Shown one piece after another: positions 43,379 through 64,000 of a stretch of 64,000 nucleotides of DNA (within the stretch, counting starts at the first letter, position 1; each line of letters opens with the position of its first letter). Made by a program: the position numbers and the translations under genes. This DNA is from Colwellia sp. BRX10-3 (GTDB taxonomy: Bacteria > Pseudomonadota > Gammaproteobacteria > Enterobacterales > Alteromonadaceae), in contig NZ_JACGWA010000003.1 in NCBI RefSeq assembly GCF_014077505.1, positions 1-64,000 on the forward strand, given 5' to 3'. The notes under the pieces are model-generated. The model ran no database searches and was not told the origin of the DNA. It was given only the letters and a program-made list of their open reading frames with translations.

Positions 43379-43753
43379 AAATAAATTATTAAAATAAATC
43401 AGTTTTATTGAGCGTTAACAAGCATTTTGGTCGAGTACTTTACAGCAGTTTCATTAGGGTTAAAGTATTGATGATATAATCAGCCGTCGACAACTCCGAA
43501 TAAGTTCCCGAACTTATATCCGAAAAGTCAGTAGGGTTTAATGATTAACACAAGCTTATTGTCAGGACGAGTTAGCGTTACTTGTTAAGTGGGATAGTTA
43601 AAAATGTGGTGAAACTTGCCCATTAGATACCGAATTTGTATTCTTATATTATTATTAAACTTTCGGTTTATGAAAATTTTAAGCAGTTATTTGTTCTATA
43701 TTGTCTAATCCTTTATTTCAAGCAGCCATTATTGGGCTGCTTGAAATACCGAG
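43379..43753. other. 375-bp convergent gap with two palindromes
   Basis: ATAAGTTC-CC-GAACTTAT (43500-43517) is a perfect 8-bp palindrome. A 13-bp hairpin, 43715-43727 with 43735-43747, lies directly after the stop of the minus-strand gene (separate entry). No ORF is convincing. Confidence 0.55.
43715..43747 (-). terminator. 13-bp hairpin after the exported unknown gene
   Basis: Perfect 13-bp arms with loop ATTATTG lie 7 bases beyond the stop of the minus-strand gene at 43754. The following T run is short, but the position suggests transcription termination. Confidence 0.6.
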
Positions 43754-44272: not shown

Positions 44273-44499
44273 TTAATATTCTCCTTTTATCTTTTAACGT
44301 TATAACTCAATAATCAAGTTACAAGAATTGAAGTATAGGTTAAAAATAAATTGTCGTTAATAATACCTATGATGTGCTCAGCGAAACAGTTGACCTAAAA
44401 ATCAACCAATCATTAATGAGGAGAAAAATTTTTATATTGCTCAATGCTCTGTTATTTCTTAATATGTTAAATACAACAATAAATAAGGAATAAAAAATA

Positions 44500-44775
44500 A
44501 TGAACAAAAGTGAATTGGTTGCAAAAATTGCTGAAGGTGCTGACATTACAAAAGCCTCTGCTGGCCGTGCATTAGACAGCTTAATTGAGTCTGTAACAAC
44601 TGAACTAGCTAGTGGTGGTGATGTAGCATTAGTTGGTTTTGGTACTTACAAAGTCAATGATCGTGCTGCTCGTACTGGTCGTAATCCTCAAACTGGTGCA
44701 GAAATCCAAATTTCTGCTGCAAAAGTACCTGCTTTTAAAGCTGGAAAAGCATTAAAAGACGCGGTCAACGTTTAA
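44500..44775 (+). CDS. hup: HU-family histone-like DNA-binding protein
   Basis: A 91-residue HU protein that bends and compacts DNA as a dimer. The start [22 protein letters not shown] and the [21 protein letters not shown] beta-arm region are canonical. The tip contains the Arg-Asn-Pro that intercalates into DNA. Full length. It sits alone with a ribosome-binding site AAGGAAT before ATG 44500. hupA or hupB cannot be distinguished from sequence alone. Confidence 0.95.
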
Positions 44776-44781
44776 ATATAT

Positions 44782-44828
44782 TAGGTCACAATTGTTTATT
44801 CATACAGAACCTTACAACTTGTGACCTA
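44782..44828 (+). terminator. Inverted repeat after the HU gene
   Basis: TAGGTCACAA 44782-44791 pairs with TTGTGACCTA 44819-44828 across a long 27-base loop. The long loop makes it a less certain terminator. Confidence 0.4.
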
Positions 44829-44893
44829 TTATTCTGCCAATATATAATCATAAAATAACGATTATGCCCGTTTATAATTTTACTTACCTGCGC

Positions 44894-45850
44894 TTAATAA
44901 ACTTTATTTCTACCATTATTCTTGGCTTTGTATAAAGATATATCTGCACGACTAATCCATGATTCAGGTGTATCATCAATATTATACTCAGAAACACCTA
45001 TAGATAAGGTTAATTTGATATCGTGAATAAACTTATGATTCTCAACAATATGGCGTATTTTTTCAGCAAGGTGTTTAGCGGTTTTTAAGTTCATACTCAA
45101 TGGGGCAATAATAAACTCATCACCACCGTATCTGTAAAGTGAATCCAACACCCGTGTATGCTCTTTTACTAAGTTGCATACAGATATTATAATTTGGTCT
45201 CCAATAGCGTGTCCATATTCATCATTTATGTCTTTAAAGCCATCTAAGTCCAGTAGTATTAAGCACATTGAAAATTGTTCACGGCTCTGGTTAGCAATTA
45301 CGCCCGATAGCTTTGTTTCTAATAATCGCCTATTACCTGAAGCTGTTAATGGATCTATGGTCGCAAGTAGTGCTAGTTCGCGTTGTTTATTATTGTATGC
45401 ACGAAACATTACGAAGGATAGAGATGCCGTTAAAATAGTAGTGGATAAGATTGTTATGAACTCAATCAATTCTGTATGTGGGAAAACAATGATTAGCATT
45501 ATAGACAACAGTATTGTGTTGATGATTTTTGCATGTTTTACTGGCACTAAATAGTGGATTGCAATAATGGTAGGGGCTACCCAAAGAATTTGTGATTGTC
45601 CTTTTATTGCTATACTTGTTAGGAGTGCAATAGCTAAAAAAATGGCATTTAAAATTCTTACAACAGCCGTTTTTCGGGTTATAAATATGTACGAAAAAAA
45701 AACTAATAATGTTATTGATATTATACCGTCAACAATAGCTAAAGTAATGTCACCGTAGTGCCAGCGTAATATTGCAAACGGGAATATGCATATAGAGCCA
45801 AGCAAATTGAGAAATAGCAATACTTTTTCCGATACCCCTCTTTCTATCAT
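44894..45850 (-). CDS. Membrane-bound GGDEF diguanylate cyclase
   Basis: A 318-residue protein with about six transmembrane helices (residues 10-155), followed by a GGDEF domain that makes cyclic-di-GMP from two GTP. The active-site GGDEF is in YRYGGDEFII. The I-site RVLD five residues before it would permit product inhibition. The DPLTASGN motif is a variant of the usual DxLTxLxN. Likely a sensor of membrane or chemical state. No partner gene is adjacent. Confidence 0.92.
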   Translation of the reverse strand: MIERGVSEKVLLFLNLLGSICIFPFAILRWHYGDITLAIVDGIISITLLVFFSYIFITRKTAVVRILNAIFLAIALLTSIAIKGQSQILWVAPTIIAIHYLVPVKHAKIINTILLSIMLIIVFPHTELIEFITILSTTILTASLSFVMFRAYNNKQRELALLATIDPLTASGNRRLLETKLSGVIANQSREQFSMCLILLDLDGFKDINDEYGHAIGDQIIISVCNLVKEHTRVLDSLYRYGGDEFIIAPLSMNLKTAKHLAEKIRHIVENHKFIHDIKLTLSIGVSEYNIDDTPESWISRADISLYKAKNNGRNKVY

Positions 45851-46231
45851 ACAGTTTCCTTTTCCTGATGGTTTCCAATATTTACTTAGCTTAAAATCAG
45901 AGCACTTAAGTATATTAAAGCATTAATTAAGATCTAGGTAAACTTGTCACTGAGGAATATCAATAACATGAAAAGAATGAGGTGTTGGGAAGATGTTATA
46001 GGTGAATCCCCCTCTTAACTCTCTAAGGGGACCCCTCGGTACTATTTTCTTTCGTCGGCTTTTAGCACAAAGCAATCCAATTCTAATTTGTTTTCAATAA
46101 CTGAGAATGTCCGTTTTGTGCGCATTGGAGAAGTTAGCTACTGGTTATTCTTTAGGTCAACTGATAGCCATAGCGGACATACCAGACTACTCTAAAATAT
46201 CATTTCTGGTGAGGCTCAGTGGTCAAGTCAG
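45851..46231. other. 381-bp gap with repeat-like sequence
   Basis: It contains an inverted repeat (ATGTCCG 46107-46113 with CGGACAT further on) and a segment (around 46141-46168) that resembles one upstream of the GGDEF-EAL gene at 49350-49386. Another short hairpin involves CCCC/GGGG near 46008-46030. No ORF is convincing. Confidence 0.45.
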
Positions 46232-49183: not shown

Positions 49184-49470
49184 ATGACTGTGCAATATCT
49201 CTTGTAATTATTTATTTGAGGGTGTCTTCCATCATGGAACTGGTTGAGGTTAATGATGGAATTACTTTATCTTACATTAAAAAATTCTCAACATCCAAAA
49301 GCACGGGTCTCCTCAAATTCTTAATGATCGCTCCTCGAACTTTGCTGACGATAGCTGTTGATTATTCTTTGGGTCAACAAATAGCCAAAAGAAGACGTTA
49401 GCTTTTGAGTTACTAACGGCAATTCGGAGCCTACAGAAGACATAAGCGATTATAATTTAGTAAGTAGATA

Positions 49471-50367
49471 TCAACCTCCAAGTATTTGCGAGCACTTGTA
49501 TCTAAGTAATTCCCTTAATGCTATTACTGCTGGGCTGACTTGTTTTCTACTTGGGCAGATTAGGTGGAGTTCTACTGATGGTGACTGATAATCGGAAAGG
49601 ATCTGTACCAATTTTCCACTGCCTAAATCTGAAAATACATCAATATGTGCTCTATTTATTATGCCTTTTCCGCTAATAGCCCAACGTCGAACAATATCTG
49701 TATCGTTACTTACTTTATTACTCCCAACTTTGACTCTATAGTTTCCTGACTTATCCATATATTCCCAATTACTAAATAGATATCCATCTCTCTTATATAG
49801 TAAACAATTATGCTTTCTTAGATCTTCAGGTTGTGAAGGTTCACCATATTTAGATAGGTAACCCGAAGATGCACAAGTAATCCTATTCATAGTTGCAATA
49901 AGAAATGAAACCATTGTTGAGTCTTTGGGTTTACCATAACGAAGGACTACATCAACGTGATCTAGCACAAAATCTGAGAGGGAGTCACCTACATGTAAAT
50001 CTATTGATAAGCTAGGGTGAAGTTCTGCTAATTCATCAATCCAAGGAAGAACTATATTACGCCCTAAATCCGAGGAAACCGATAATCGTAATTTTCCGCT
50101 TATCTTACCTTGCATCTGATGAGCTGCTATTTTCCCTTGCTCTAAGCTATTCAACGCCTGTCGGCAATGGTGTAGAAATTGTTCTCCTTGTGGAGTAATA
50201 CGTAGTTGTCTAGTTGTTCTTATAAACAATTGAACATCTAGCTGTTTTTCTAATCGTTTAAGAGCGGAGCTGACAGCAGGAGGTGTTACACCCAACTGTT
50301 TCGCAGTTTCAGTTATGCTGCTGGTTTCAACGATTCGAATAAATAGACTTAGATCTGATATGTTCAT
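49471..50367 (-). CDS. LysR-family regulator divergent from an OYE gene
   Basis: A 298-residue regulator. N-terminal winged HTH: SSITETAKQLGVTPPAVSSALKRLEKQL. The effector domain is of standard length. It is divergent from the ene-reductase gene at 50476 with only 108 bp between starts; regulators of this kind usually control the neighbour. Effector unknown. The HTH is clear. Confidence 0.9.
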   Translation of the reverse strand: MNISDLSLFIRIVETSSITETAKQLGVTPPAVSSALKRLEKQLDVQLFIRTTRQLRITPQGEQFLHHCRQALNSLEQGKIAAHQMQGKISGKLRLSVSSDLGRNIVLPWIDELAELHPSLSIDLHVGDSLSDFVLDHVDVVLRYGKPKDSTMVSFLIATMNRITCASSGYLSKYGEPSQPEDLRKHNCLLYKRDGYLFSNWEYMDKSGNYRVKVGSNKVSNDTDIVRRWAISGKGIINRAHIDVFSDLGSGKLVQILSDYQSPSVELHLICPSRKQVSPAVIALRELLRYKCSQILGG

Positions 50368-50475
50368 TGTAAACTTATTTTTAATAGTGTCTTAAGTATT
50401 GATGTGTTTTTAGTTTATAGAAAATGGTTGATAATGTCTTAAATTCTTTATAAATATATTGATTAACAAGAGGTA

Positions 50476-51687
50476 ATGATGACTAATTCAGCTATATTTG
50501 AAAATTTGCTTAATCACTCACTACAACTACCATGTGGCGCAGTTATTAAAAATAGATTGGTAAAGTCAGCAATGTCAGATTCGCTTGCCGATGGTGAAGG
50601 TAATGCTACAAATGCTCAAGTTCGGCTTTATGAAAGATGGGCTGAGGGTGGAGTTGGGTTATCTATTATAGGAGAGGTGCAGGTAGACCACCGTTATCCT
50701 GAAAAACCAGGAAACTTAGTTTTAGAAAAGGGAATAGATCTAGATATGTTACGTACTTTAGCCTCACGGGCCTCAATTAATGGCGCTCATATATGGCCTC
50801 AGTTAGGTCATGCTGGAGGGTTGTCTCATTTACCCATAAGTAAACCCAAAGGGCCTTCCGCCCTCAATCTTGATAATTTTGAGTGTGCCGGAATGTCGGA
50901 TGTAGAAGTATCTCAGTTACCTGAAATATATGCTAAAGCAGCAATGATCGCGAAAGACGTTGGCTTCACAGGCATTCAAATCCATGCAGGTCATGGCTTT
51001 TTACTCAGTCAGTTTTTATCTCCACTATTCAATCATCGTCAAGATAAGTATGGTGGTTCTATAGTTGCACGATGCAAAATTATTGTGGAGATAATTGATA
51101 AGGTCAGAGATGCGGTTGGTGATTCATTTCCTATAGGAATTAAAATTAACTCAACAGATCAGCTGGAGGGTGGTTTAACACAAGAGGATGCGTTAGAAGT
51201 TATCCGCATTCTCGATAATACCTCGATTGACTTAATAGAATTAAGTGGGGGGTCTTATTTCCCAGGAGCAAAACCTAGTTCTGAAGGAGCTTCAAATGGG
51301 CCATATTTTATCGAATTTGCAGCAAAAGCAAGATGTCTAACGCTTATACCTTTAATGGTAACGGGAGGCTTTAAAACTTGCGATCAGGCTGTAGAATCAC
51401 TGGGAACTGGCGCTGTCGACTTTGTAGGTTTAGCGCGAGCATTAGTCATTAACCCAAACATTGCGAATGACTGGCTAACAGGCACAAATAATGAGCCTGA
51501 CTTCCCTAAATTCAAAGCGCCACCTTCTGGCGGAATAACGGCATGGTACACGATGCTTTTATCCGCAATTGGAAGTGATAACGATGGTGATTTCAACATT
51601 GAACTTTCATCCGCTATTCATCATTACGAGAGTCGTGATTATGCACGCTGTGCTCAATGGAAGGAAAAATTTTCGATTAACGAATAG
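50476..51687 (+). CDS. NADH:flavin oxidoreductase, Old Yellow Enzyme family
   Basis: A 403-residue FMN-dependent ene-reductase. The fold starts SLQLPCGAVIKNRLVKSAMSD. HAGHGFLLSQFLSPLFNHRQDKYGG is the characteristic active-site and FMN-phosphate region, and VTGGFKTCDQAVE plus VGLARALVINP are typical C-terminal strands. It reduces activated C=C bonds of enones using NAD(P)H. The start is ATG 50476 or 50479, after AAGAGGTA. It is divergent from the LysR gene, its probable regulator. Confidence 0.93.
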   Translation: MMTNSAIFENLLNHSLQLPCGAVIKNRLVKSAMSDSLADGEGNATNAQVRLYERWAEGGVGLSIIGEVQVDHRYPEKPGNLVLEKGIDLDMLRTLASRASINGAHIWPQLGHAGGLSHLPISKPKGPSALNLDNFECAGMSDVEVSQLPEIYAKAAMIAKDVGFTGIQIHAGHGFLLSQFLSPLFNHRQDKYGGSIVARCKIIVEIIDKVRDAVGDSFPIGIKINSTDQLEGGLTQEDALEVIRILDNTSIDLIELSGGSYFPGAKPSSEGASNGPYFIEFAAKARCLTLIPLMVTGGFKTCDQAVESLGTGAVDFVGLARALVINPNIANDWLTGTNNEPDFPKFKAPPSGGITAWYTMLLSAIGSDNDGDFNIELSSAIHHYESRDYARCAQWKEKFSINE

Positions 51688-52084
51688 CTAGCTATTAAGC
51701 ATTATTTAGACTAGTAATTATAAAATGAAAAAAGTCAGAGACATTTGTTATCTTCTTTTAAATAGGAAACTACAACGCCTTTGCTTAACAGAGGCGTTTT
51801 TATTTCGATAATAGTGGGCACATGTACATAGAATTAATATGTCGTTAATCGTTGTATTAACTTTTTATCGTAATAGCTGCCGTTATATAAGGTAAGGCTA
51901 GCGTCCGCTATCGTATCAAAGTGAACATAAAACGGGTTGGTTTTGACCAATGAATTAAGTCAGGTTTGTGCGCTAAGCGGAAATTAGCAGCTAGCTAATC
52001 CTAACGTCGCTTCAAGCCTCAAAGACGACTGTGGAATTTTGATTATCATAAATAAGAACGCCATCAACAGAATTAACGTTCATT
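51688..52084. other. 397-bp convergent gap with a terminator and repeat-like sequence
   Basis: Besides the terminator at 51774-51805, the region from about 51890 holds GC-richer sequence (GTCCGCT ... TTTGTGCGCTAAGCGGA) unlike its surroundings, similar in style to the repeat-like sequence near 46110. No ORF is convincing. Confidence 0.4.
51774..51805 (+). terminator. Terminator after the OYE gene
   Basis: AACGCCT 51774-51780 pairs with AGGCGTT 51792-51798, followed by TTTATTT. It lies 87 bp after the stop. Confidence 0.75.
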
Positions 52085-53734
52085 TTATATGCTAGCTATC
52101 TCGGATTCCCAAATAATATCACCGAGTAACTCACCATTTATTAATTGCATATACTTTTGTTCAATAGCGTTTCGTTTAATTTTTAACGTGGGTGTTAATA
52201 GCCCGTTATCTATATCCCATACCTCAGAACAAACGAGAATGTAATCTAATTTTTGGTGACTTTCCAATTTATTATTTACATCTGTTAATATGTTTTTTAA
52301 TCTTTCAACGGCCTCAGAATTTTCTTTTGAAATTGAATTATTTAACACCACGATTGCTACAGGTTGCTTTAAGCCTGATCCCATCACACAAACCTGATCT
52401 ATATCGGTATTGGCGCTTAGCATACTTTCAATCGGTACGGGCGTTACATATTTTCCTTTGCTCGTTTTAAATTTATCTTTTATTCGGCCGACAATTTTAA
52501 ATGCACCAGTGGCAGTATTTTCACCACAATCACCCGTGTGAAACCAACCATCGGTAAACGATTCTAAGGTGGTTTCAGTATCTCGATAATATTCACTAAA
52601 TACGGCATCACCTTTAATTAAAATTTCACCTTCTTCAGAAAGTTTCATCGTTACGCAACTAATTGGCTTACCAATTGTTCCTAAGTCCCTTTTGACAAAG
52701 GGTAGGTTAATACAAGACATGCTGGACGACTCTGACATGCCCCATGCTTCACTAATATTAATTCCTAATTTTTCATACCAATGTAATAAAGAAAGAGGTA
52801 TTGGAGCTGTACCTGAAGCAAAGTACCTTGCACATTCCAATCCTAATTTTGTTCTTATTTTTTTAGCTATAATTTTGTTAATAATTGGGATTGAGATTAA
52901 AAAGTTTAACTTTTTTTCAGGAATGTTTTTCAATATTTGGCTTTGGAATTTTGTCCATAGTCTTGGTACTGAACCAAAAACGGTTGGCTTACCGTAATTT
53001 AGGTCTTCAATAAACGTTTCAAGAGATTCAACAAAATAGATTTCATATCCTATGAAAAGTGATGACGCTTCTAAACTTCGCTCAACCACGTGCGCTAAAG
53101 GAAGATAAGACATTTGGCGATCATTCGACGTCATATTAAATTTTAATGCTGTGCTTTGTGCAGCCGACATCCAGTTTTTATAGGTTAATACAACACCCTT
53201 CGGCTCGCCCGTTGAACCAGACGTATAAAGTATGGTGGCGGTATCATCTATCGACGCTTGATGAACGTTTTCAATAGGCGGATATTTGCTTAACCAAGAC
53301 GTAAATGATTCTGTAGTTGAAGCGGTAGGGTAAGGAAAAGCTATACGCAGTACATCGCTATTAATTGCTGATTCGGCTGCGCTTGTGTCGTCTAATTTAC
53401 CTACGAATATGGCTTTCAAGTCTGCGTGTTTAATTACAAAGCTTATTGTGTTGTGGTGCGCAGTTGAAAAAATTGCTACAGGTATATAGCCAGCCATCAT
53501 TATCGCTAAATCGCTGATAATCCAATGGGCACAGTTTTTTGATAAAATACCTATTCGCGAACCTTTTTCATATCCCTGCGATTGTAAGCCCTTTGCAATA
53601 CAACGTGCTTGATGCTCTACCTCTGCCCAAGTGAACTTTTGCCAATGCCTTTCAATGGGTTGGTGCAAATAAACCTTGTCTGGATTATTTTTACTCTGCT
53701 TTAGTAAGTTTTGAACAGGAGTTGTATATGTCAT
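52085..53734 (-). CDS. AMP-binding acyl-CoA ligase
   Basis: A 549-residue adenylate-forming ligase of the long-chain acyl-CoA synthetase type. The P-loop-like motif LYTSGSTGEPKGV, the A5-type motif AWGMSESSS and the adenylate motif GWFHTGDCGE with KDKFKTSKGKYVTP (A8/A10 region) are intact. It activates a fatty or similar acid as acyl-AMP and transfers it to CoA. The start at ATG 53734 follows AAGGATA; GTG 53776 is less likely. It stands alone. Substrate unknown. Confidence 0.92.
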   Translation of the reverse strand: MTYTTPVQNLLKQSKNNPDKVYLHQPIERHWQKFTWAEVEHQARCIAKGLQSQGYEKGSRIGILSKNCAHWIISDLAIMMAGYIPVAIFSTAHHNTISFVIKHADLKAIFVGKLDDTSAAESAINSDVLRIAFPYPTASTTESFTSWLSKYPPIENVHQASIDDTATILYTSGSTGEPKGVVLTYKNWMSAAQSTALKFNMTSNDRQMSYLPLAHVVERSLEASSLFIGYEIYFVESLETFIEDLNYGKPTVFGSVPRLWTKFQSQILKNIPEKKLNFLISIPIINKIIAKKIRTKLGLECARYFASGTAPIPLSLLHWYEKLGINISEAWGMSESSSMSCINLPFVKRDLGTIGKPISCVTMKLSEEGEILIKGDAVFSEYYRDTETTLESFTDGWFHTGDCGENTATGAFKIVGRIKDKFKTSKGKYVTPVPIESMLSANTDIDQVCVMGSGLKQPVAIVVLNNSISKENSEAVERLKNILTDVNNKLESHQKLDYILVCSEVWDIDNGLLTPTLKIKRNAIEQKYMQLINGELLGDIIWESEIASI

Positions 53735-54272
53735 GGGTAGCACAATATCCTTATAGAAAGTTAGACCTGTTATCACGCTTGAGTATTGTTTAAATTAATA
53801 CTCATAGTTAATACGTGAGGTAGGAGCATCAAATGAGTGCATCAGCGTATAATTTATACAGGTTATTATATAATCATGAGTAAATCAGAATAGCTATTAA
53901 TTCAAGGTGTTTTACCGATAGGTTTATTCTTTACCTCGTTTGAAAAATGTATAAAAATAGGATTTTCACTCTTCAAAAGGGTTTATGAAATGATATTTTT
54001 CATGGCTTTTTAATATGAAATTTTCACCAAGCAGTCATCACATTTCAACTTAATGACTGATGGCAATGGTAGCTGAACATACTATTTATTGTGATAAATA
54101 CGTGTCTAAATTAGGTCGGCTTTCTCAATAAACTTGTCATAAGGAATAACCAAGGACTACGTCGTCTTTAAAGCTCAAAGTTACCGTTAATATAATCTCT
54201 TTGAATGTTAACTATGAGCCTGTTTTTCGTCTCACGTAGTGTGTACCAATTTAGAAGTATAGCTACCGATTT
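53735..54272. other. 538-bp gap without a convincing gene
   Basis: A/T-rich sequence with no ORF of protein-like character and no hairpin with a T run that I could find. The promoter of the acyl-CoA ligase lies in its left part. Confidence 0.4.
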
Positions 54273-54593
54273 CTATGATTGGTGCTTATCGGTTATTCTA
54301 AATAACTCGTCGATTACTCTTTGAGACTCGGGGTTCTTAACTAACTCCGATTTATAAAGAATAATCGCTTCTTTGATCGCATCGTTATCTGAATAAAATT
54401 TCCCTATTTTCATTATAAAACCAGTGGAGTAATTTTTACCTTCAATAAAGCCATCAAATTCAGAAATTAGCATATTGAAGGAATTGAAATCACCTTCATT
54501 TATCGACTGGTTCAGCAAATAATGGTTAGTTTCATAATGTATATCGGTACTAATCTGATAATTTAAATTTTCGAAGTTGAGGTTGGAAAGCAT
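54273..54593 (-). CDS. Small helical protein of unknown function
   Basis: A 106-residue acidic, mainly helical protein with no signal peptide. The sequence (FNMLISEFDGFIEGK, AIKEAIILYKSELVKNPES) is compatible with a TPR-like half, but no family is recognised. The ribosome-binding site is weak, so it could be a minor or decaying gene. It is isolated between the acyl-CoA ligase and the second subtilase. Confidence 0.5.
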   Translation of the reverse strand: MLSNLNFENLNYQISTDIHYETNHYLLNQSINEGDFNSFNMLISEFDGFIEGKNYSTGFIMKIGKFYSDNDAIKEAIILYKSELVKNPESQRVIDELFRITDKHQS

Positions 54594-54686
54594 ATGTAAC
54601 TTTAATTATTCCTACTGATAAAAAAACACGGATTGTAGAAAAATAGTTGGCTACAATATTGAAGTAACCGTTTTAAGTGACTGCCT

Positions 54687-54730
54687 CCCTAAAAATTAAA
54701 AAAGTCCTAACGAGTTAACGTTAGGACTTT
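54687..54730 (-). terminator. Terminator after the second subtilase
   Basis: AAAGTCCTAAC 54701-54711 pairs exactly with GTTAGGACTTT 54720-54730, and on the minus strand a long T run (TTTTTTAATTTTT) follows. It lies 28 bases beyond the subtilase stop; a strong rho-independent terminator. Confidence 0.9.
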
Positions 54731-54758
54731 ACTATAAGTTTTGTTAACTAACTAAAAA

Positions 54759-56045
54759 TTATAGATTATTTGCATCTAGAAAATCTTCTGTGTGCGGGTC
54801 GCCTGAAGTATTGCTAAAGCCATTTGTACTTTCAGCTGATTGTAATAAAGCAGCACGCGTATTTACAAAAGCACTGCCATTTGCTGCTTGTGGGTTGCTT
54901 GCTAAATAAAGAGCCGCCGCACCTGCAACATGTGGAGATGCCATAGACGTTCCACTCATTGTTGTTGTTCCACCGCCTTTACGAAGTGATAAAATGCTAC
55001 CACCTGGTGCCGCAATAGCTACCGGTGCAGAATTATTACTAGTCCAGCTTGCACTTTGAATCCCCCAGTTTGAGAAGCTATTCCAATCGTCGCCTTCTTT
55101 GGCTGAACTAACTGTTACTACAGTATCAGCGTAACCAGCAGGAGTGTAATTTTCAGCATTATCACTGTCGTTGCCAGCGGCAACAACTACAACAACACCA
55201 GCATTACGAGCATTACAAATCGCTTCATGATATGAATCAATACCAGTAAAACCATTATTAGTACAGGTACCTGTTACACTTCCGCCGCCACCAATAGACA
55301 TATTAACAACAGCGGCTTCGCCACGTGCTGTTACTTCAGATGTAACCCAATCAAGCGCAGCAATTGTACTTGAATTAGGACATGAGCCACGGCTTGAACA
55401 GATTTTACCAGCATGTAATGTAACACCTGGAGCCATACCGACAACATCTTGACTGTTATCAATTGCGCCTATCGTTCCACCAACATGAGTTCCGTGACCA
55501 TGATCGTCATCCCATGGTTGACTACAGTCTTTACCTTTACAGTTTTCAAAAGCCATACCGTTGCCAATATTGCCAGCTAAGTCTGCATGATCGGAATCAA
55601 GACCTGTATCTAGTACATAAACATGTACGCCAGCACCGTTATTACTATTGGAGTCTGCGCCAGTACGCGAAATGCCCCAAGGCATCACTTGTGGGGAAGG
55701 AGTACCGCCACCAGAACCAGGCTTTCCTTTGTTAATGCTTTTTTCACCATCAAATTCAACTGAGGCAACATTAGGATTATTACGCAAAGCGTTCAAACGA
55801 CCTTCAGTAACTGAAGCGGCAAAACCAAAAAATGCCGAGCCATATGAAAATTTAACTGCTCCTACGCCCATACCAGCAGCAATATTTTTGGCATTGCTTT
55901 TGTTTGACTCGTGACCAGACACTGCTAAGTTAGCATTCAACTTCACGATTACATCTAGCTTTGATGTTGGGTTACCCGCTTGAGCAGCTGTTGTACTCAA
56001 TGCTAATATTGTTGCTGCAGCAACATATTTTAATTTAAATTTCAT
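54759..56045 (-). CDS. Secreted subtilisin-like serine protease
   Basis: A 428-residue S8 endopeptidase with a signal peptide (ending AAQA), an I9-like propeptide (to about residue 115) and a catalytic domain without accessory modules. The triad is clear: Asp in VYVLDTGLDSDH, His in HGHGTHVGGTIG and Ser in SGTSMASPHVAG, with oxyanion Asn in VAAGNDSDN. Cysteines in FENCKGKDC and CSSRGSC suggest disulphides. It probably digests protein outside the cell, complementing the multidomain protease at 24446. A strong terminator follows. Confidence 0.95.
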   Translation of the reverse strand: MKFKLKYVAAATILALSTTAAQAGNPTSKLDVIVKLNANLAVSGHESNKSNAKNIAAGMGVGAVKFSYGSAFFGFAASVTEGRLNALRNNPNVASVEFDGEKSINKGKPGSGGGTPSPQVMPWGISRTGADSNSNNGAGVHVYVLDTGLDSDHADLAGNIGNGMAFENCKGKDCSQPWDDDHGHGTHVGGTIGAIDNSQDVVGMAPGVTLHAGKICSSRGSCPNSSTIAALDWVTSEVTARGEAAVVNMSIGGGGSVTGTCTNNGFTGIDSYHEAICNARNAGVVVVVAAGNDSDNAENYTPAGYADTVVTVSSAKEGDDWNSFSNWGIQSASWTSNNSAPVAIAAPGGSILSLRKGGGTTTMSGTSMASPHVAGAAALYLASNPQAANGSAFVNTRAALLQSAESTNGFSNTSGDPHTEDFLDANNL

Positions 56046-56767
56046 TATTTACCCTTCATTATTATTGTTTAGTTTAAACCGTTTGCAGTTACTTCTTAGC
56101 AAATCTACAATAAGGCTAAATTAGGATGGCTGGTAAAAATAGTAAAAAAGCGACCATTATTGATAATATAACGTCATAATAAAATAAAATTTAAATAGCA
56201 CTAACAAATAATAGAAGCTTAGTAGCCTTGGTTAATACTACTGGTTCTGCTACTGATTTACTGATCATTATAACTCGGTCCCATTAAGACATGACAATGG
56301 TGCAGGTATTGCTGAACATGTGATTAAGATGATTTCTGTACCCTTTTTACCACCAAGGAACAAGGTTCAAATTAGTTTGAGCCATCAAGTTGAGGCTCAT
56401 GAATAAATTGTCACGACTGAAAAACCTTAGCGTTCACTTTGTTAAGGTTTTGAGATACCAGCTAATGCACAAAACCTATCAACAACTCATCATCACATGG
56501 CAGATGTCTAAAAGCTTACAATGAGAAAACCGCAGGAATTTAATTCGGTGCTATGGGGATTACTTAATTCTCTTTTGCTCTGGATGGATGAAACGCTTTA
56601 TAGGTACTAATGTACGCAACGTAAGTAATTATCAAGCCACTCATAATAATTTATAAAACTGAATGTCTGCAAAGCGGATAAAGCCACAAAGATGAATAAG
56701 TCTGATTGAAGCTTCAGATGATTTTTCGTTGTAAACACTAAATTTTACCACAAAACAGAACCACCAC
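56046..56767. other. 722-bp gap with a decayed histidine-kinase fragment
   Basis: The central part holds a plus-strand open frame with HATPase-like motifs (56257-56406, separate entry) and a terminator-like hairpin just after it (56421-56431 with 56441-56451). The remainder has no ORF of protein-like character. Confidence 0.5.
56257..56406 (+). pseudogene. Decayed histidine-kinase ATPase fragment
   Basis: The plus-strand frame between TGA 56254-56256 and TAA 56404-56406 encodes DNGAGIAEHVIKMISVPFL, then ISLSHQVEAHE. This follows the HATPase order DNGxGI..PF..GLGLS..IVExH, with the GxGLGL part degenerate. There is no start codon or upstream phospho-acceptor. An approximate terminator hairpin (56421-56451) follows at the natural end of a gene. 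It looks like the remnant of a lost sensor kinase. Confidence 0.5.
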
Positions 56768-57694
56768 TTACGAACCAGGCTGAATTATAAGTAACTTTTG
56801 TTTCATAAAGTCGATAAAAACGCGATTTTTATTAGGTAGGTATTTACTTTGCACATACTGCAAACAAATATCACCTTGATAATTTCCTTGTAACTGCCAG
56901 TCCTCTAACAATGGAATGAGTTTCCCTGTTTCAATACCCTGTTGCGCGATATAATCTGGTAAAGAACCAACACCAAAGCCCTGTTCAATAGCATCTCGGC
57001 GCATTTCACTGTGATTAATTAGATATGACCCTGTCACTTGTACCGTAGTTTGTTGATTTTTATTACTAAATCGCCAACGACTATCAGCCATATTTTCGCC
57101 TAAGCATATGCATGCTAAATTTTTTAAATCATCGGGGTGTAATGGTAGCGTGTGTTTGGATAGAAAATCAGGGCTAGCACACACAACATGTTCAACATGG
57201 CCAAGTTTGACGTTTACCAAGGCTTCAATGGGGGTGTTATTAATATGAATCAAAAAATCTACACCGTCATGAATAGGATCTAAAATACGGTCGGATACCT
57301 TTAAATGCAACTGGATATCGGGATAGCATTTCAAAAACTCAACAAACAGTGGTCTTAATACTTTATTGGCTAGTGATTTTGGTGCCGCTACTCTCAATAA
57401 TCCACTAACTGTCGATGTTGCAGAGCGGCTAGCATTAACAGCTTGATCAGCAGATTCTACCATTTGCTTACAATAATTAAATGTTATTTTCCCTGACTCC
57501 GTTAATGCCAGTTGTCGTGTAGTTCGCTGTAATAATTTGATGCCTAATGCATCTTCTAATCGGCTAATTTGACGGCTCACTGCTGAAGGTGTGACCCCAA
57601 GTTTTTTTGCCGCCTTGCTAAAGTTTCCTTGCTCGACCACAGAAACAAAAATAGCCATATCAGATAATAAAGGGATTAATTTATTTGTGTCCAT
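56768..57694 (-). CDS. LysR-family regulator divergent from a LysE-type exporter
   Basis: A 308-residue regulator. N-terminal HTH: FSKAAKKLGVTPSAVSRQISRLE. The substrate-binding domain has normal length. ATG 57694 is preferred; an upstream TTG at 57715 would add seven residues, and AAAGGAC precedes the ATG. It is divergent from the LysE-family gene at 57808 (113 bp), likely its target; such pairs control amino-acid export. Confidence 0.92.
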   Translation of the reverse strand: MDTNKLIPLLSDMAIFVSVVEQGNFSKAAKKLGVTPSAVSRQISRLEDALGIKLLQRTTRQLALTESGKITFNYCKQMVESADQAVNASRSATSTVSGLLRVAAPKSLANKVLRPLFVEFLKCYPDIQLHLKVSDRILDPIHDGVDFLIHINNTPIEALVNVKLGHVEHVVCASPDFLSKHTLPLHPDDLKNLACICLGENMADSRWRFSNKNQQTTVQVTGSYLINHSEMRRDAIEQGFGVGSLPDYIAQQGIETGKLIPLLEDWQLQGNYQGDICLQYVQSKYLPNKNRVFIDFMKQKLLIIQPGS

Positions 57695-57807
57695 GAAGCA
57701 CAAGTCCTTTTCCAATTAAGTGTATTGTTTAAAATAGCTCATATATTAACATAGTTGCAGTGAATAAATGAGTTGCTGCGAGCATACTTAAAATTGTAGA
57801 GGTAAAT

Positions 57808-58449
57808 ATGGAATTGTTAATAAATACTTATATGGCAGAAATTATAGCGGTGAGCACAATTGCTATTTTTATGGCTATGTTACCCGGTGCTGATTTTGTG
57901 ATGGTGACGCGTACGAGCATCAACAATGGCCGTTTGGCAGGTTTATATATGAGCTTAGGTATGTGTTTATCTGTTTGTATTCATGCTAGCTATTCTATTG
58001 CCGGATTAGCAGTATTGATAGCAAATTCGCCATGGTTATTTTCAGCAATTAAATTTCTAGGAGCGGCTTATCTTATTTATATTGCTTGGCAGTTATTAAC
58101 AACACGCGAGAGTTTAAATAAAAATCAAAGTAACCCTACGACTCAAATGTCACCTTTTATGGCATTCCGTTTAGGCTTTACTTGCAATATATTAAACCCT
58201 AAAACATCTATTTTCTTCTTAAGTATTTTTACGCAAGTTGTGTCGATAGATACTCCGTTAATAATGCAAGTAAGTTATGGTTTGATCATTATGTTGGCAC
58301 ATTTTATTTGGTATGGCGGTGTGGTTTTATTGTTATCACATCCAAGTATATTGCCTCGTTTCAATCGACAAAAGAAAAAAGTTGATAAAGTATCAGGATT
58401 TGTATTGATGCTAATTGCTATAAAGCTCAGCTTAGTTAGTTCTGTTTAA
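57808..58449 (+). CDS. LysE/RhtB-family amino-acid exporter
   Basis: A 213-residue membrane protein with about six helices. MLPGADFVMVTRTSINNGRLAGL is the conserved LysE/RhtB segment near the start and GFTCNILNPKTSIFFLSIF the second. These proteins export amino acids or their analogues by proton motive force. The regulator gene is divergent at 56768-57694. Substrate unknown. AGAGGTAAAT precedes ATG 57808. Confidence 0.93.
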   Translation: MELLINTYMAEIIAVSTIAIFMAMLPGADFVMVTRTSINNGRLAGLYMSLGMCLSVCIHASYSIAGLAVLIANSPWLFSAIKFLGAAYLIYIAWQLLTTRESLNKNQSNPTTQMSPFMAFRLGFTCNILNPKTSIFFLSIFTQVVSIDTPLIMQVSYGLIIMLAHFIWYGGVVLLLSHPSILPRFNRQKKKVDKVSGFVLMLIAIKLSLVSSV

Positions 58450-58818
58450 GTAAAAATGGCTGATATGTTGATTGTGATAAGCCATTTATAACCGTTTTGT
58501 TCATTTTAAAGTCATGCTTTTGAAGTATTGTGTCTAACTGCTGTGTTGGCTTAGTTGTCTATCAGGGCAAAGGTAGCTCTACATCTTTTGAGCATTGAAA
58601 AGTCACAAAAATCAATTGATGCGAACGATCGCTGTGTCGGAGCTGTTAACCTTGATGAACGTCGCTAAAGCGTCAGTCATGGGCACAGACCAAGCTATAT
58701 TGAGATTAAATTTATCTCGCTTTGTGCCACAGAGCGAGATAAATTTAGCATTACTATTGCAACTTACCATCATCAAGATTCACCTGCATAAGGGCAACTT
58801 TGAATACGTAATAGTAAA
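58450..58818. other. 369-bp convergent gap with a long hairpin
   Basis: A perfect 15-bp hairpin lies at 58707-58747 (separate entry). A minus-strand open stretch around 58618-58730 translates to protein-like sequence (MTDALATFIKVNSSD), but its ends are not gene-like; a decayed fragment is possible. Confidence 0.4.
58707..58747. repeat. Perfect 15-bp hairpin
   Basis: TAAATTTATCTCGCT 58707-58721 pairs exactly with 58733-58747 across an 11-base loop. It lies about 70 bp beyond the stop of the minus-strand DUF885-like gene. The following sequence is not T-rich on either strand, so the role may be termination, RNA stability or a mobile-element relic. Confidence 0.65.
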
Positions 58819-60462
58819 TTACAGTTGCTCTTTTGCAACAGCCTCAACTTCCGCTAGAAAAGCGGGTTTATTGTTGGTCATTTCCCACATTCCTAAAGTG
58901 ATTGGTATTCCTCCTATGCTATTCAATTCGTCAAAGAATTGCTTAAAAGCAAAGCTGCGACCCTGTTCCTCGACTAACTTTGCTTTTTGCGCTATTGCAG
59001 TATCTAGCAAAGCTTTACCCGTAACATAACTGGTACCATAACCCGGTTGACGTAGATAAAGATGTTGTTCAAAAATAAGTAATTCAGGTTCTGTTTTCAT
59101 CCATCCTCTAGGGGTGTAGTTCATATGGATTTTACCTGCCTGTTCCATCGTCATTTGATTGGCGTGAGCGTACAGTGAACCAAGCCCTCGAGCTGCTCTC
59201 TGAGCAAGCATAATCCAAACAATTTCCCGTGTTCTGGGATTGTGATCATACAAACCAGCATGCATAAATATTTCCTCCACAGCAGTGGCAGTGCCTTCGT
59301 TACGCGTATCGAATATATTATACAGCAGGGCATTTTTTCTCATGGTTCTTGGATTAGGTTCGTTTTCAATTATAGCTAGCTCAAACCAGTGATAAAAATG
59401 CGAATACAAGGGGGTTGGATCAAGGTGGCTGCCGATGTAGAAAAAGTTTCGTGTTGCTTCGGGCACAAAGTTACCTAAGCGTTCGTAAAGGGCAGGTGCA
59501 AAGTAATCAGCTACTGTTAGGATATTTTTTTCATGCAAAAATTTAAGAAAAAACGCAGCTGAACGATTTGCTAATAGATCATACTCTGCAGAATTTTTGA
59601 CCGGCTTCAAAGGGGGGAGGTCTTTATTTCTTTGTTCCTCTAACTTTAATGAAGACCAAGCCCTATCAAGCTCACGGCGTAAAAGTCTTTCTTCATCTTT
59701 CCATGTCATAGGCAATAAATGTACGTGCTTTTGATACCAACTATACTGGGCCATTCCAAGTCCTGAAGGCCCGGTTTTATCTGTACTTTGCTGCTGTAAC
59801 CAAACAACGAATTGGCGGGTTGATTGCAGTGCTTCTTTATGCTCTTTTATGAGCCGAGCATTATTCGTACTATCAATTTGTGGCTGAAGAGTTAACAGTG
59901 ATTTGTGCTGCTCTTGAATATCACGTATACCCGCTATCCAGAGTTCTTTGGCGTTGCCTGTTAAGTTCTCTTTAGCTTGAATATGAAAAGGCTTTATGCG
60001 AGATAGGTCGTTGCTAAGCCTATTCTGCTCGCTTGCAGTCAGTGGAAATGAATAGCTCCATAGTTCAGTAACATAATGGGGAGTAGGTCCCTCGTGAGCA
60101 GGCACATCACTTTTATATGTCCATACCTGCTTGTAAAACGCTGGGTCTCTTTGCCATGGTTTTAGCACTGTCTCATTAAATTCATAGCCATTAAGTTCTG
60201 CTAACATTACAAACCAGTCGACTTGTTGTGCAACGGTCCATGCTGATTTATCAAAGGCTAATAATTGCTGTTTAAATTGCGCCCATTTTACATGACGTTT
60301 TTCGAAAGTATTTTTACGATAGTCAGGTGCAAGCTCGTGCAACGGCGCTACCTCAAAAGTACGCCACTGAATAAAAAGCGTCTCTAATTGGCTAAAATCT
60401 GCAGATGATTTTACGCCAAACGAAAAAAATAATAGTGCTATTACTATATATTTCATTGTCAT
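58819..60462 (-). CDS. Exported DUF885-like protein with atypical metal site
   Basis: A 547-residue protein with a signal peptide (residues 1-21). The second half resembles DUF885 (a metallopeptidase-like helical family): NEGTATAVEEIFMHAGLYD matches the EGxAxYxE segment and RQPGYGTSYVTGKALL the PGQAxxYxxG segment. The usual HExxPGHH stretch is not recognisable; HFYHWFELAIIE may take its place. It may therefore be an inactive or altered member. Function unknown, probably periplasmic. Length is close to other DUF885 proteins. The family call is moderate. Confidence 0.65.
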   Translation of the reverse strand: MTMKYIVIALLFFSFGVKSSADFSQLETLFIQWRTFEVAPLHELAPDYRKNTFEKRHVKWAQFKQQLLAFDKSAWTVAQQVDWFVMLAELNGYEFNETVLKPWQRDPAFYKQVWTYKSDVPAHEGPTPHYVTELWSYSFPLTASEQNRLSNDLSRIKPFHIQAKENLTGNAKELWIAGIRDIQEQHKSLLTLQPQIDSTNNARLIKEHKEALQSTRQFVVWLQQQSTDKTGPSGLGMAQYSWYQKHVHLLPMTWKDEERLLRRELDRAWSSLKLEEQRNKDLPPLKPVKNSAEYDLLANRSAAFFLKFLHEKNILTVADYFAPALYERLGNFVPEATRNFFYIGSHLDPTPLYSHFYHWFELAIIENEPNPRTMRKNALLYNIFDTRNEGTATAVEEIFMHAGLYDHNPRTREIVWIMLAQRAARGLGSLYAHANQMTMEQAGKIHMNYTPRGWMKTEPELLIFEQHLYLRQPGYGTSYVTGKALLDTAIAQKAKLVEEQGRSFAFKQFFDELNSIGGIPITLGMWEMTNNKPAFLAEVEAVAKEQL

Positions 60463-61108
60463 GTTCCTATCCTTGAAAAGAGTCTATGTAATGTAACAGG
60501 GCACGCACTGATAAATCTATTAACAATATACGAAATATAAAGGCAAGGTTTGAATAAATTTTCTAATATTAGCGACTATGAGTAGGCCTGACAATCGTCT
60601 GTTTTTTGAACACAATGTCGGGTTTGGGGAATAACCCAAACATGGCACTTTATTTACTTACCGTTTTTCGATTGCTAATCGTATCTGCCTGGAGAAAATA
60701 GGTACGTATCTTGCCAATTCTCCCAAGTGAAGAATGACTTGATAAGTTGATGATTTTGACATGCTTTATTTACTGTAACTTTCAGAAAATTCTCCGTTGT
60801 TGTTATGTGAAATTAACATTGTAATGACTTGAGGGGCAATATCTAATCCGACAGTGCCTATCATAGCTGCTCATCGAACTTTTGAGACGAAACTGGATGT
60901 CTTTTTTTTCGGAGCCGTTGCTGTTAACTCTAATATTTATAACGACTACTTTCGTATAGATACGAGGATCAATTCCTGACAACTTATTGCCCAATCTAAA
61001 TAATATTCATTGGTGGAGTTAAATGTTATCACTGTGAAGGTATCTAACGGTTGGTGCAGTCTAAGCAGATGCTAGAAGGTTCTGCTTACTTCGTAGGCGA
61101 TTTAAATC
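60463..61108. other. 646-bp gap upstream of the sbcC relic
   Basis: This is the left part of the 740-bp gap. It contains a TCGGAGC-type segment near 60909, similar to ones at about 49425 and 58636, but no ORF with protein-like character. An sbcC-like relic begins at 61109. Confidence 0.4.
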
Positions 61109-61208
61109 TAAAACGTATATAGGTACAAATAGAAGTGAAGAAACAAAGTGGACTTGTAGTGAGTGAGTTAGCTGCCGTTATCGCTATCTTGATAGTTAAG
61201 TTTTATTC
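61109..61208 (+). pseudogene. Diverged fragment of the sbcC 3' end
   Basis: About 97 bp match the last 90 coding bases of sbcC plus its first downstream bases (40657-40754) at roughly 85 percent identity by eye. GTACAAATAGAAGTGAA and AACAAAGTGGACTTG are shared exactly. An in-frame TAG, a 1-base deletion and several changes disrupt the frame, so it is a pseudogene tail. Matching continues past the sbcC stop (TTTATT), so the copied segment included non-coding flank. It overlaps the last six bases of the binding-protein gene. Confidence 0.75.
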
Positions 61209-62021
61209 ATTGTATAGCATTGGTCTATAGGCGTTAATTTTCGGCAATAGACTAACCGCTGATAACGTTGCGGCGCTTGCTGCAGTTACCTGATATTTGT
61301 TGGCGGTATTTTCTAAAAAACCGTTATCTTTAAGTTGCTTCAACGAAAGTTCAAGTTTCGGTATTAATGCCGCGTGTTTTTCATTGAGATAGGTAAAAAG
61401 ATGAAATGAAAGTACTGCAGGGCTTTGTATCATTAATTGTTTATTTAATTCAGGAAACTGGTTTAATAGATTTTTTGCAACTGATGCAAACATGATGGCC
61501 GAATTTACTCGTTTTTTCGCGACCATTTCTAACACTTGCTTATTGGAAGAAACTGCAACACGATTTTCTATTTTGAGATACTTTCTTATCGTTTTCGAGC
61601 CACGCAGAAATGATACTTTACCTTGGTTGATAGATTCCCATGTAATCGGGCGGGTGATCTTTTTTTGCGCCAAGGTAATCATTACAATTTCAGTTAATAC
61701 GATAGGTTCGTTAACCAGTACGTAGTTAGAAGTGTCGGCATCTGAAATATCTTTAAAATTTATAACTCGAGATAGATCCCCATCAACATAACCATTGTTT
61801 ACTTGGGAAATAACTCTGCTACCCGGCATTTCAATTACGTTTATTTCAATCGAATAAGGTTTTAGCGCTTCTTGAATAACTTCTTTTAGATATAAACTTA
61901 AGGGAGGTCTAGCATGAGTGGCAAATACAAGTTTTTCTTCTGCTAATAGAGGCACGGAAATTAGGATCAAAAAAAAGGTATAAATACTTATCAAAAAAAT
62001 CCTTATTTTTGGCCGTTTCAT
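61203..62021 (-). CDS. Periplasmic solute-binding protein, type 3-like
   Basis: A 272-residue secreted protein with a signal peptide (ending VPLLAE) and a type 3 binding fold (ARPPLSLYLKEVIQEALKPYSIEINVIEMPGSR...). Similar proteins bind amino acids or organic acids. No transporter partner is beside it, so it may serve as a sensor or orphan binding protein. The 3' end overlaps the sbcC relic by six bases, so part of its current stop region may derive from that relic. Confidence 0.8.
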   Translation of the reverse strand: MKRPKIRIFLISIYTFFLILISVPLLAEEKLVFATHARPPLSLYLKEVIQEALKPYSIEINVIEMPGSRVISQVNNGYVDGDLSRVINFKDISDADTSNYVLVNEPIVLTEIVMITLAQKKITRPITWESINQGKVSFLRGSKTIRKYLKIENRVAVSSNKQVLEMVAKKRVNSAIMFASVAKNLLNQFPELNKQLMIQSPAVLSFHLFTYLNEKHAALIPKLELSLKQLKDNGFLENTANKYQVTAASAATLSAVSLLPKINAYRPMLYNE

Positions 62022-62406
62022 ATATCTCTTATCCTTAAGTATTGAAATTATACGAGGTCATATTTTTTAATGTCTTAACTTCCGATTTGTTAGACAGCTG
62101 GCGAAGCTATTGATACTAAACTTATCGTAAATGCCTATACACAGTATCGTAAATGTAAAGTGTTTAAAATACAAACAAGTATAGCTTATGTGTTTATTTT
62201 ATCTACTATAACTACACCACTTCAAACTGCTATTACTCAAAACTAATACCCAACGATTATGAAAATATATTATGGTGTGAATATTTTCCTTGGGGAAATT
62301 TAAGTTGACCACTACATACAGAAGCATATATTGTTTTAAGTACATTAAGACTGAATATATTAACAGTTTATTTTGTGATGTTAAATTGCATAAATAGGAG
62401 AAAGAG
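62022..62406. other. 385-bp divergent gap
   Basis: This region holds the starts of the binding-protein gene (minus) and the HDOD gene (plus). TAGGAGAAAGAG before ATG 62407 is a strong ribosome-binding site. A small TTTCC/GGAAA hairpin lies near 62285-62300. No ORF. Confidence 0.4.
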
Positions 62407-63246
62407 ATGTTAACGACAGCGCTTGAATATGCAGAAAAAGCAGAGAAACTCTGTGTTTTACCCGATGTTTATTTACGCTTAAAAGAGATGATGGATGACG
62501 AGCAATCAACTTTGGTAGATATTGCCAATATCATTGCACTAGATCCTGCGTTATCTTCTAAACTCCTAAACGTTGCAAATAGTGCGCTATTTAATTTTCC
62601 TCGAGAAATAGACAGCATTTCAAGAGCAATATCTATTCTTGGTACTGATGAAGTTCACAATTTAATTAACACCTATGGTGCAACCACGGCTTTTTCAGCG
62701 ATTGATACTAGTATTATTGATATGGATAGGTTTTGGGAAATTAGTGTTGATTGTGCATTGTTGTGTAAGTTCTTAGCGCAGAAAAAAGGCATTAAGAATG
62801 CTAAAGGTTTATTTGTTTCGGGCTTACTTCATAACATTGGTGAATTAGTCGTTATGCAATCTGATCCTAAGAAGGCTCAATATTGTCAAGGCTATGATAA
62901 AAATGAAACCCCATGGCAAAGGCAAAAAGATGTTTTTGGTTTTACCTATGCCGACTGTAGTGCGCAATTATTAAATTTATGGCAACTTCCACAAAGTATA
63001 ATTTCTCCAATTGAACAATATCATCAAGCTTATAATGAAGATAAAGATGAGGCGGTTTCACTACTTTATATCTGTACTAGGCTGGCCTTACTAAATTCTC
63101 ACCCAGGTATGTATTCAAAAAAATCATTCGTTGGTCAACATGTTATGGAAGATCTTGGTATTACTTTAGCTGATTTAGATGAAGCGGTGAATTTTTGTAA
63201 TATCGAAGGTATGGCTATTATTTCAGCATTGAAGTTAAAAACGTAG
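62407..63246 (+). CDS. HDOD-domain protein
   Basis: A 279-residue HDOD protein. The helical HDOD core begins LPDVYLRLKEMMDDEQSTLVDIANIIALDPALSSKLLNVANSALF, followed by ISRAISILGTDEVHNL and GLLHNIGELVV. HDOD proteins act as signalling modules linked to cyclic-di-GMP or chemotaxis networks. Catalytic HD metal ligands are not intact, as is usual for the family. It stands alone; the strong ribosome-binding site supports the start. Confidence 0.92.
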   Translation: MLTTALEYAEKAEKLCVLPDVYLRLKEMMDDEQSTLVDIANIIALDPALSSKLLNVANSALFNFPREIDSISRAISILGTDEVHNLINTYGATTAFSAIDTSIIDMDRFWEISVDCALLCKFLAQKKGIKNAKGLFVSGLLHNIGELVVMQSDPKKAQYCQGYDKNETPWQRQKDVFGFTYADCSAQLLNLWQLPQSIISPIEQYHQAYNEDKDEAVSLLYICTRLALLNSHPGMYSKKSFVGQHVMEDLGITLADLDEAVNFCNIEGMAIISALKLKT

Positions 63247-63561
63247 CGGCTAATGTTTTAAAATTAAATTATGCCGCTATTAATAAGATAAATTAAAATA
63301 AAAGTTTACTTTGTCAATTGTTGGGGATATAGTGCAGTCGTTAATTATTCCTATCTAGTTTATTTAGCCGATTGTTTAAAAAATCGTGTTATGCCTTTCC
63401 CTTTCACAGTTAGTCATCACTTAATTTATTAAGCTTAAATTATTGTCTGATTTTTCGAGTTTTTTTCGTAAATATTTTTTATTTTTCACATATAAAAAGA
63501 ACAACTACACAATAATATAGCTTTTGTTCATGCGTTATTACGCACATTAAAAGAGTTTATT
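63247..63561. other. 315-bp gap before a small gene
   Basis: A/T-rich sequence with a T run near 63440-63490. AAGAG just before ATG 63562 is the ribosome-binding site of the small gene. No repeat or RNA recognised. Confidence 0.35.
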
Positions 63562-63729
63562 ATGTCTTATACATACCAAGGTACGATCTATTCGATCGCC
63601 TCACCCGTTCAATCAATTTCTGTTAACAAAAATAATGTTGCAGTGACAGATAAAAACGGCACAAAATTAATCTCATTTACTAATGTAAATGAGTCAAAAT
63701 CGTTTCTAGCTTGGATTTACCAAAGCTAA
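63562..63729 (+). CDS. 55-residue conserved-looking small protein
   Basis: An ORF from ATG 63562 to TAA 63729 with AAGAG seven bases upstream. The sequence (MSYTYQGTIYSIASPVQSISVN..., SFLAWIYQS) alternates hydrophobic and polar residues, suggesting a small beta-sheet protein. No family is recognised. No signal peptide or membrane helix. The ribosome-binding site and protein-like composition support coding. Confidence 0.55.
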   Translation: MSYTYQGTIYSIASPVQSISVNKNNVAVTDKNGTKLISFTNVNESKSFLAWIYQS

Positions 63730-63793
63730 AAACCAAACCCTAGCTATTACAAGTTACTTTAAAAACGCTTAGTTAAGCTTTAGATTAGTTACT

Positions 63794-64000
63794 TTATTGA
63801 TTTAATAGCACCCGTTTGAGTTTTGTTTTGACTGAACGCCAATGTGTCGCAGGTTTAGTTGGTGCTATCGCTATCAACTGTTGCCATTGCTGTTCAGTTA
63901 ATTGAACTTTTGCACCATGTGCTAAAAGTACAGACTCAACATTCAACGCCTTAATTTTTTTTAACGACTCAATATAGCGATTAGGGTAAAAAACCGGGTA
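63794..64000 (-). CDS. C-terminal end of a probable MBL-fold-like hydrolase
   Basis: The last 68 codons of a gene entering from the right edge. ESLKKIKALNVESVLLAHG resembles the SLxxLxxLxxDxxLPGHG segment near the C-terminus of metallo-beta-lactamase-fold hydrolases. It ends in a basic tail (KTKLKRVLLNQ). The identification rests on one motif and is tentative; most of the gene lies outside the window. Confidence 0.55.
   Translation of the reverse strand, partial: YPVFYPNRYIESLKKIKALNVESVLLAHGAKVQLTEQQWQQLIAIAPTKPATHWRSVKTKLKRVLLNQ

Follow-up and report, generated by a model that had tools for sequence, protein, structure and literature searches.

The window analysed here, a stretch of 64,000 nucleotides from Colwellia sp. 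BRX10-3, carries an intact sbcDC pair, a patchwork of accessory genes downstream of it, and a degraded piece of the 3' end of sbcC that runs into the end of a putative solute-binding protein gene (Table 1). The flavin monooxygenase-like and alpha/beta hydrolase genes that follow sbcC are referred to as set B, and the binding-protein and HDOD-domain genes beyond the relic as set A. The locus was compared with those of 16 genomes of the same genus (Colwellia/Cognaticolwellia), which together with the window genome (G000) makes 17.

Table 1. Features of the sbcC locus in the window; G numbers denote genomes used for comparison
Feature	Coordinates	Strand	Remarks
sbcD, intact	35403-36809	+	NCBIfam SbcD model, 553 (cut-off 450)
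sbcC, intact	36809-40747	+	NCBIfam SbcC model, 755.6 (cut-off 750)
Flavin monooxygenase-like gene (set B)	40789-42261	+	Directly after sbcC also in G007 and G011
Alpha/beta hydrolase gene (set B)	42368-43378	+	Same set in G007 and G011; decayed in G012
Patchwork	43379-61109		Several patches similar to loci elsewhere in other species
Relic of sbcC 3' end	61110-61207	+	Final 91 columns of an sbcC, then 8 bp of 3' flank
Putative solute-binding protein gene (set A)	61203-62021	-	SBP_bac_3, E 0.12 (weak, below cut-off)
HDOD-domain gene (set A)	62407-63246	+	Adjoins the binding-protein gene in G009 too
Right anchor of the hotspot	63328-64000		Conserved in 17/17 genus genomes

Results

Extent and decay of the sbcC relic

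Within the window, blastn aligned the relic with 40657-40755, the tail of the intact sbcC and 8 bp of its flank, at 84.8% identity over 99 columns with one gap (E 1.8e-25). The portion of sbcC represented is its final 91 bp, stop codon included. A sequence-only reading of the window had reported a match of about 85% to the end of sbcC and its 3' flank, interrupted by an in-frame TAG and a single-base deletion; the match was confirmed with its coordinates shifted by one base at each end, and both lesions are present. The overlap with the end of the neighbouring binding-protein gene, which the same reading had pointed out, comes to five bases, the last five of the match also being the end of that ORF. 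Apart from providing those five bases, the relic is probably without a coding function.

The resemblance exceeds chance, as the local alignment score of relic and sbcC tail was 122 and the best of 100 dinucleotide shuffles reached 36. Genome-wide, the only other strong match to the relic was sbcC itself (E 1.6e-24; next best 0.24), and no third copy was found in the whole-genome search. A DNA profile of sbcC, built from the window and the 16 relatives and run over 58800-62100 with all filters off, recovered only the relic (E 2.8e-19). More diverged sbcC sequence upstream of the relic, which the earlier reading had envisaged, was not found by this search in any part of 58800-62100 left of 61110. 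By eye, the bases left of the relic as far as about 61096 are possibly homologous as well. The presumed non-homologous joint would lie at about 61110, where sbcC homology ends, with an edge that may be blurred by later change. A loose alignment between sbcC and the entire stretch proved to be a product of permissive gap costs and was discarded. The origin of 60463-61105 was sought among 60 genomes, which returned one 31-base match (G017, E 0.004), taken as chance.

The position of the intact sbcDC genes

A single SbcC match was found in the genome. Upstream of sbcD, a glyoxalase-like gene is in place in six of seven relatives (G005, G008, G009, G007, G011 and G012), G014 being the exception. 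The gene preceding it is found upstream of sbcD in all seven, although the match in G008 covers just its last 35 residues. With these upstream neighbours conserved, sbcDC appears to have kept its place, and nothing in the gene order suggests a move. The gene that has been displaced is the binding-protein gene, now separated from sbcC.

The sequence-only reading had seen in the relic the mark of an old duplication, rearrangement or replacement of the sbcDC locus, in which either a second sbcDC may once have stood at 61 kb or the intact genes may have moved. Of this, the derivation from sbcC and a record of rearrangement or replacement hold; a whole second sbcDC is not supported, given the lack of sbcC sequence upstream of 61110 in the profile search and the single SbcC match in the genome, and neither is a move, given the conserved neighbours in close relatives.

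A hotspot of gene turnover between sbcC and a conserved anchor

Both flanks of the interval, sbcC on the left and the anchor on the right, are present in all 17 genus genomes, while the contents between them differ widely. From the end of sbcC to the right anchor, the distance is 124-4910 bp in all 16 relatives and 22,581 bp in the window. The comparison shows that the sbcC-anchor interval is a hotspot of gene turnover in the genus. In G005 and G008, it is filled by the binding-protein gene and a further ORF, which from the look of its sequence we take to be desulfhydrase-like; in G009, by the binding-protein and HDOD genes; in G007 and G011, by the monooxygenase and hydrolase genes, which are decayed in G012. 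Large single ORFs occupy the interval in G001, G002, G003 and G015, and other ORFs in G004, G010, G013 and G016, while G006 and G014 have no ORF of 90 aa there. G001 has, immediately behind sbcC, a broken piece of the binding-protein gene that is 57 residues long and 44% identical. One of the two sets stands directly after sbcC in six of the 16 relatives, three for each set, and no relative has both. The window alone among the 17 holds both sets, 17.7 kb apart.

The search for relatives with sbcC beside the binding-protein gene, which the earlier reading had recommended, found them in three of the 16 same-genus genomes. In G005, G008 and G009, the orthologue (83%, 83% and 70% identical, respectively) follows sbcC directly in opposite orientation, and the stretch from the relic into the binding-protein gene is colinear with each of the three in one unbroken blastn match of 939-1091 columns. 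Since the two genes stand tail to tail in these relatives, they show the relic to be the surviving sbcC half of an old sbcC/binding-protein junction. On the other side of the locus, the distance from sbcC to the start of the monooxygenase gene is about equal in the window, G007 and G011, and the 3' flank of the intact sbcC resembles, by eye, that of the relatives with set B. No second sbcC tail follows set B in G007 or G011 within the DNA examined.

In a genome of another family (G040, locus L169), monooxygenase and hydrolase genes also lie close to each other with one ORF between them, at 80 and 73% DNA identity to 40779-43378. Their proximity in so different a host suggests that the pair is a travelling gene set.

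The patchwork between set B and the relic

The DNA between set B and the relic is made up in part of segments with matches at other loci; these were scored among the best eight candidates per genome, so that further matches may exist. Two segments match separate loci of G003, 46165-49430 at 98% identity (3.3 kb) and 54659-58456 at 94% (3.8 kb). A third, 44876-46116, is 94% identical (1.2 kb) to a G009 locus elsewhere, and 43685-44368 and 58826-60475 are 88% identical to G011 and 76% identical to G018, a member of another genus, respectively. Since sbcC itself is only about 71-83% identical between the window and G003, depending on the segment, the patches at 94-98% look like recent transfers. 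The two G003-like patches, both probable recent transfers, correspond to a GGDEF-EAL receptor gene and to a subtilase-LysR-LysE block. The segment 56675-58461 is 82-91% identical also to other loci of G005, G001, G015, G011, G007 and G012, and its presence in several relatives indicates that it may be relocated native DNA rather than foreign. In the corresponding interval of the relatives, the regulator and GGDEF genes of the patchwork gave weak matches only, in G013 and G003 (28-38% at the protein level).

Thirteen ORFs in 43757-60462 were scanned for protein families, leaving out seven ORFs, each at least 80 aa long, that overlap on the opposite strand; some of the 13 were additionally scanned with NCBIfam, PADLOC and PHROGs. 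They include an HU-like protein, GGDEF and GGDEF-EAL proteins, LysR regulators, a flavin oxidoreductase, an AMP-binding enzyme, a subtilase and a LysE transporter, and four have no Pfam family. No integrase or transposase was found among these 13 ORFs, set A and set B, and neither a tRNA nor an Rfam family was found in the window. The last ORF, 58819-60462, encodes a 547-aa protein with no family above cut-off in Pfam, NCBIfam, PADLOC or PHROGs; its homologues are 81% identical in G018, of another genus, and 64, 62 and 52% identical in G010, G007 and G048.

Short stretches of about 65-100 bp at patch borders (46112-46180, 49340-49430 and 51878-51970) recur at other loci of several relatives with 79-89% identity, and in the eight loci examined they lie outside ORFs of 90 aa or more. 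The first two are partly alike by eye and form the two ends of the 98% G003 patch. These border stretches might be seams used for recombination. Four short repeats at patch borders were folded as DNA, and none was clearly more stable than its shuffles.

Placement and age of the relic

In a tree of sbcC, the relic was best placed next to G008, followed by G005 or the stem of G005 and G008. As sister of the intact copy it was 1.1 log units worse, on the G014 stem 1.7 and on the stem of the G007 group 2.0, and the AU test excluded none of these. Positions within the G007 group or beside G009 were 7 to 10 log units worse. At a difference of 1.1 log units, the tree does not tell whether the relic is a duplicate of the resident tail or an import.

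The alignment used for the clock has 99 columns, 15 of which differ; one of these differences lies just beyond the match. Under a neutral clock, which uses few columns and input distances of our own choosing and assumes the absence of gene conversion, the relic is too little diverged for a duplication as old as the split from G007 (P 2e-5), and marginally so even for the split from G005 and G008 (P 0.048). This clock puts the cut tail after the G007 split and probably also after that from G005/G008. The decayed set-B copy of G012 has lost about 14% identity relative to G011, while fourfold-degenerate sites of sbcC differ by just 0.14 between the two, which indicates that relics at this locus decay fast.

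The fourfold-site divergence of set B from G007 and G011 is 0.41-0.47, compared with 0.48 for sbcC. Being so close to that of sbcC, it does not mark set B as newly arrived, and set B was either inherited or obtained from an equally distant donor. For the binding-protein gene, fourfold sites lie nearer to G009, with a relative distance of 0.77 (0.59-0.95) against 1.02 (0.99-1.06) for nine flanking genes taken together, a comparison based on about 80 sites each and made without a tenth flanking gene (32965-34590), which was not obtained from all four genomes. First and second codon positions showed no shift (0.96 against 0.95 for the flanking genes). Import of set A from a donor nearer to G009 is therefore indicated by the fourfold sites and not by the other codon positions. 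The genes to the right of the anchor have ordinary distances.

Along the intact sbcC, sliding identity revealed no clear donor tract. In a few internal windows, identity to G007 is as high as that to G005 or slightly higher (for example 0.85 compared with 0.84, and 0.90 compared with 0.89), and the last 122 columns are 94% identical to G005 and G008 as against 86-88% to the G007 group. A breakpoint inside the intact gene with a G007-like tail was considered and was not seen, its final 122 columns being of the G005/G008 kind.

Discussion

We consider it probable that two alternative fillings of the hotspot were joined end to end by one-sided, or homology-facilitated illegitimate, recombination, and that the cut sbcC tail is what this event left behind. 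In the older state, sbcC would have stood tail to tail with the binding-protein gene. One end of the incoming DNA would have paired with a conserved flank, either sbcC or the anchor, and the other would have been joined without homology, severing an sbcC so that its final 91 bp, stop codon included, were left. This tail would then have decayed through the TAG and the frameshift, and further genes, some of them clearly foreign, would have piled up patch by patch in the space from set B to the relic. Exchange in both flanks would swap one set for another without leaving a scar, and the state of the window suggests one homologous and one non-homologous joint.

Such an event could have run in two directions. 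DNA carrying an sbcC tail, set A and the anchor may have joined a chromosome with set B, with homology at the anchor and the cut in the donor sbcC. Alternatively, DNA carrying sbcC, set B and more may have joined a chromosome with set A, with homology in sbcC and the cut in the resident tail. We lean slightly towards the former, in which set A came second, because set B starts as it does in G007 and G011, sbcC has no clear donor tract, and set A carries the fourfold-site signal described above, although this evidence does not decide the matter.

An older origin of the arrangement is unlikely. It would place sbcC, set B, an sbcC tail, set A and the anchor, in this order, already in the common ancestor of the window genome, G005, G008, G007, G011 and G012, after which G005 and G008 would have lost set B, perhaps through recombination between the tails, and G007, G011 and G012 would have lost set A. 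Vertical descent of this kind would agree with a set-B divergence close to that of sbcC, with the first and second codon positions of the binding-protein gene and with the shared start of the monooxygenase gene after sbcC in the window, G007 and G011. It would, however, predict about 34 differences in the relic where 15 are seen, a deficit for which gene conversion from the intact tail could account; it also sits poorly with the fast decay of relics at this locus, as in the set-B copy of G012, and the fourfold sites of the binding-protein gene misfit simple descent. The joined state, which is known from one genome, could be ancestral if gene conversion or constraint had kept the relic young.

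We regard it as quite improbable that a whole copy of sbcDC, acquired by an old transfer or duplication, once stood beside the binding-protein gene and was deleted except for its tail. The relic is genuine sbcC sequence, as this would require, yet 58800-62100 holds no other sbcC sequence, the genome has its single SbcC match, and the adjacency of sbcC and the binding-protein gene in relatives accounts for a tail without any second copy. Similarly small is the chance that a 20.4-kb block was inserted at a staggered break whose filled-in ends duplicated some 99 bp of the resident sbcC tail, one copy on either side. The intact tail is indeed that of the resident lineage up to its end, and the repeats stop 8 bases beyond the sbcC stop codon; but set B already follows sbcC in G007 and G011, so that its junction with sbcC was not made by the insertion unless it was transferred, and fill-in of 99 bp at a staggered break is unusual. 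Hardly any probability attaches to an integrative element of 20.4 kb at the sbcC 3' end, with the two repeats as its attL and attR and with G005 and G008 as the empty site, even though direct repeats at a gene 3' end do flank the extra DNA with a start-to-start spacing of 20,453 and the empty order of sbcC followed by the binding-protein gene is seen in G005, G008 and G009. The 13 scanned ORFs, four of which lack a Pfam family, and the two set-B genes include no integrase or transposase, the repeats are 85% alike rather than nearly identical and one of them is frameshifted and degraded, the content is a patchwork resembling separate loci of several species, and set B follows sbcC in G007 and G011 without a second tail in the DNA examined.

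One-sided joining of two fillings, the reading that we prefer, has parallels in known systems. Many hotspots of gene turnover between conserved core genes are reported to lack mobile elements (Oliveira et al. 2017, PMC5635113). The sbcC-anchor interval resembles the hotspots described there in its fixed flanks, its fast turnover of content and the lack of a recognisable integrase in the window, and differs from that description in having two fillings side by side instead of a replacement, together with a cut piece of a flanking core gene. In Vibrio cholerae, modules of type VI secretion system (T6SS) effector and immunity genes have been displaced, which left immunity genes as orphans and, in one case, moved the 3' end of an effector gene away; the authors suggest homology-facilitated illegitimate recombination for them (PMC5361080). 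There, as here, newcomers behind a conserved gene displace the old downstream gene, in one instance with a remnant 3' end; unlike in the T6SS case, the remnant in the window is the tail of the repair gene sbcC, the genes concerned are mostly metabolic or signalling genes, and about 20 kb separate the parts. The process itself, with homology at one end of the incoming DNA and non-homologous joining at the other, has been observed experimentally (PMC3240628), whereas in the window it is deduced from one old product. The scar is a single clear example of an already known kind of process. In the titles and abstract openings of the papers retrieved on Colwellia with sbcC, and on Colwellia with islands and hotspots, nothing concerned this locus.

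The locus can be read as a fossil of how accessory genes accumulate at a chromosomal hotspot at which no mobile element was found. With both fillings still in place beside a severed bit of the flanking gene, the joint can be pinned down to nearly single-base precision and a rough age can be given for it. The locus also serves as a warning that a gene fragment far from the intact copy need not imply that the intact gene has moved or been duplicated. A broader proposition, to which we assign a very low probability, is that the sbcC 3' end is a recurrent, integrase-independent landing site for foreign DNA in Colwellia, with sets added behind sbcC and its end rebuilt each time; were it true, one could read insertions and their dates from displaced sbcC tails.

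A conserved ORF leader within the anchor

At the right edge of the window, a leader of about 230 nt precedes a 55-aa ORF (63562-63729; whole region 63330-63729), and parts of this leader are nearly invariant in all 17 genus genomes. The ORF has no Pfam family above cut-off, and the region gave no Rfam match, even at E 1. The region 63330-63729 possibly holds a conserved leader RNA or a regulated small protein.
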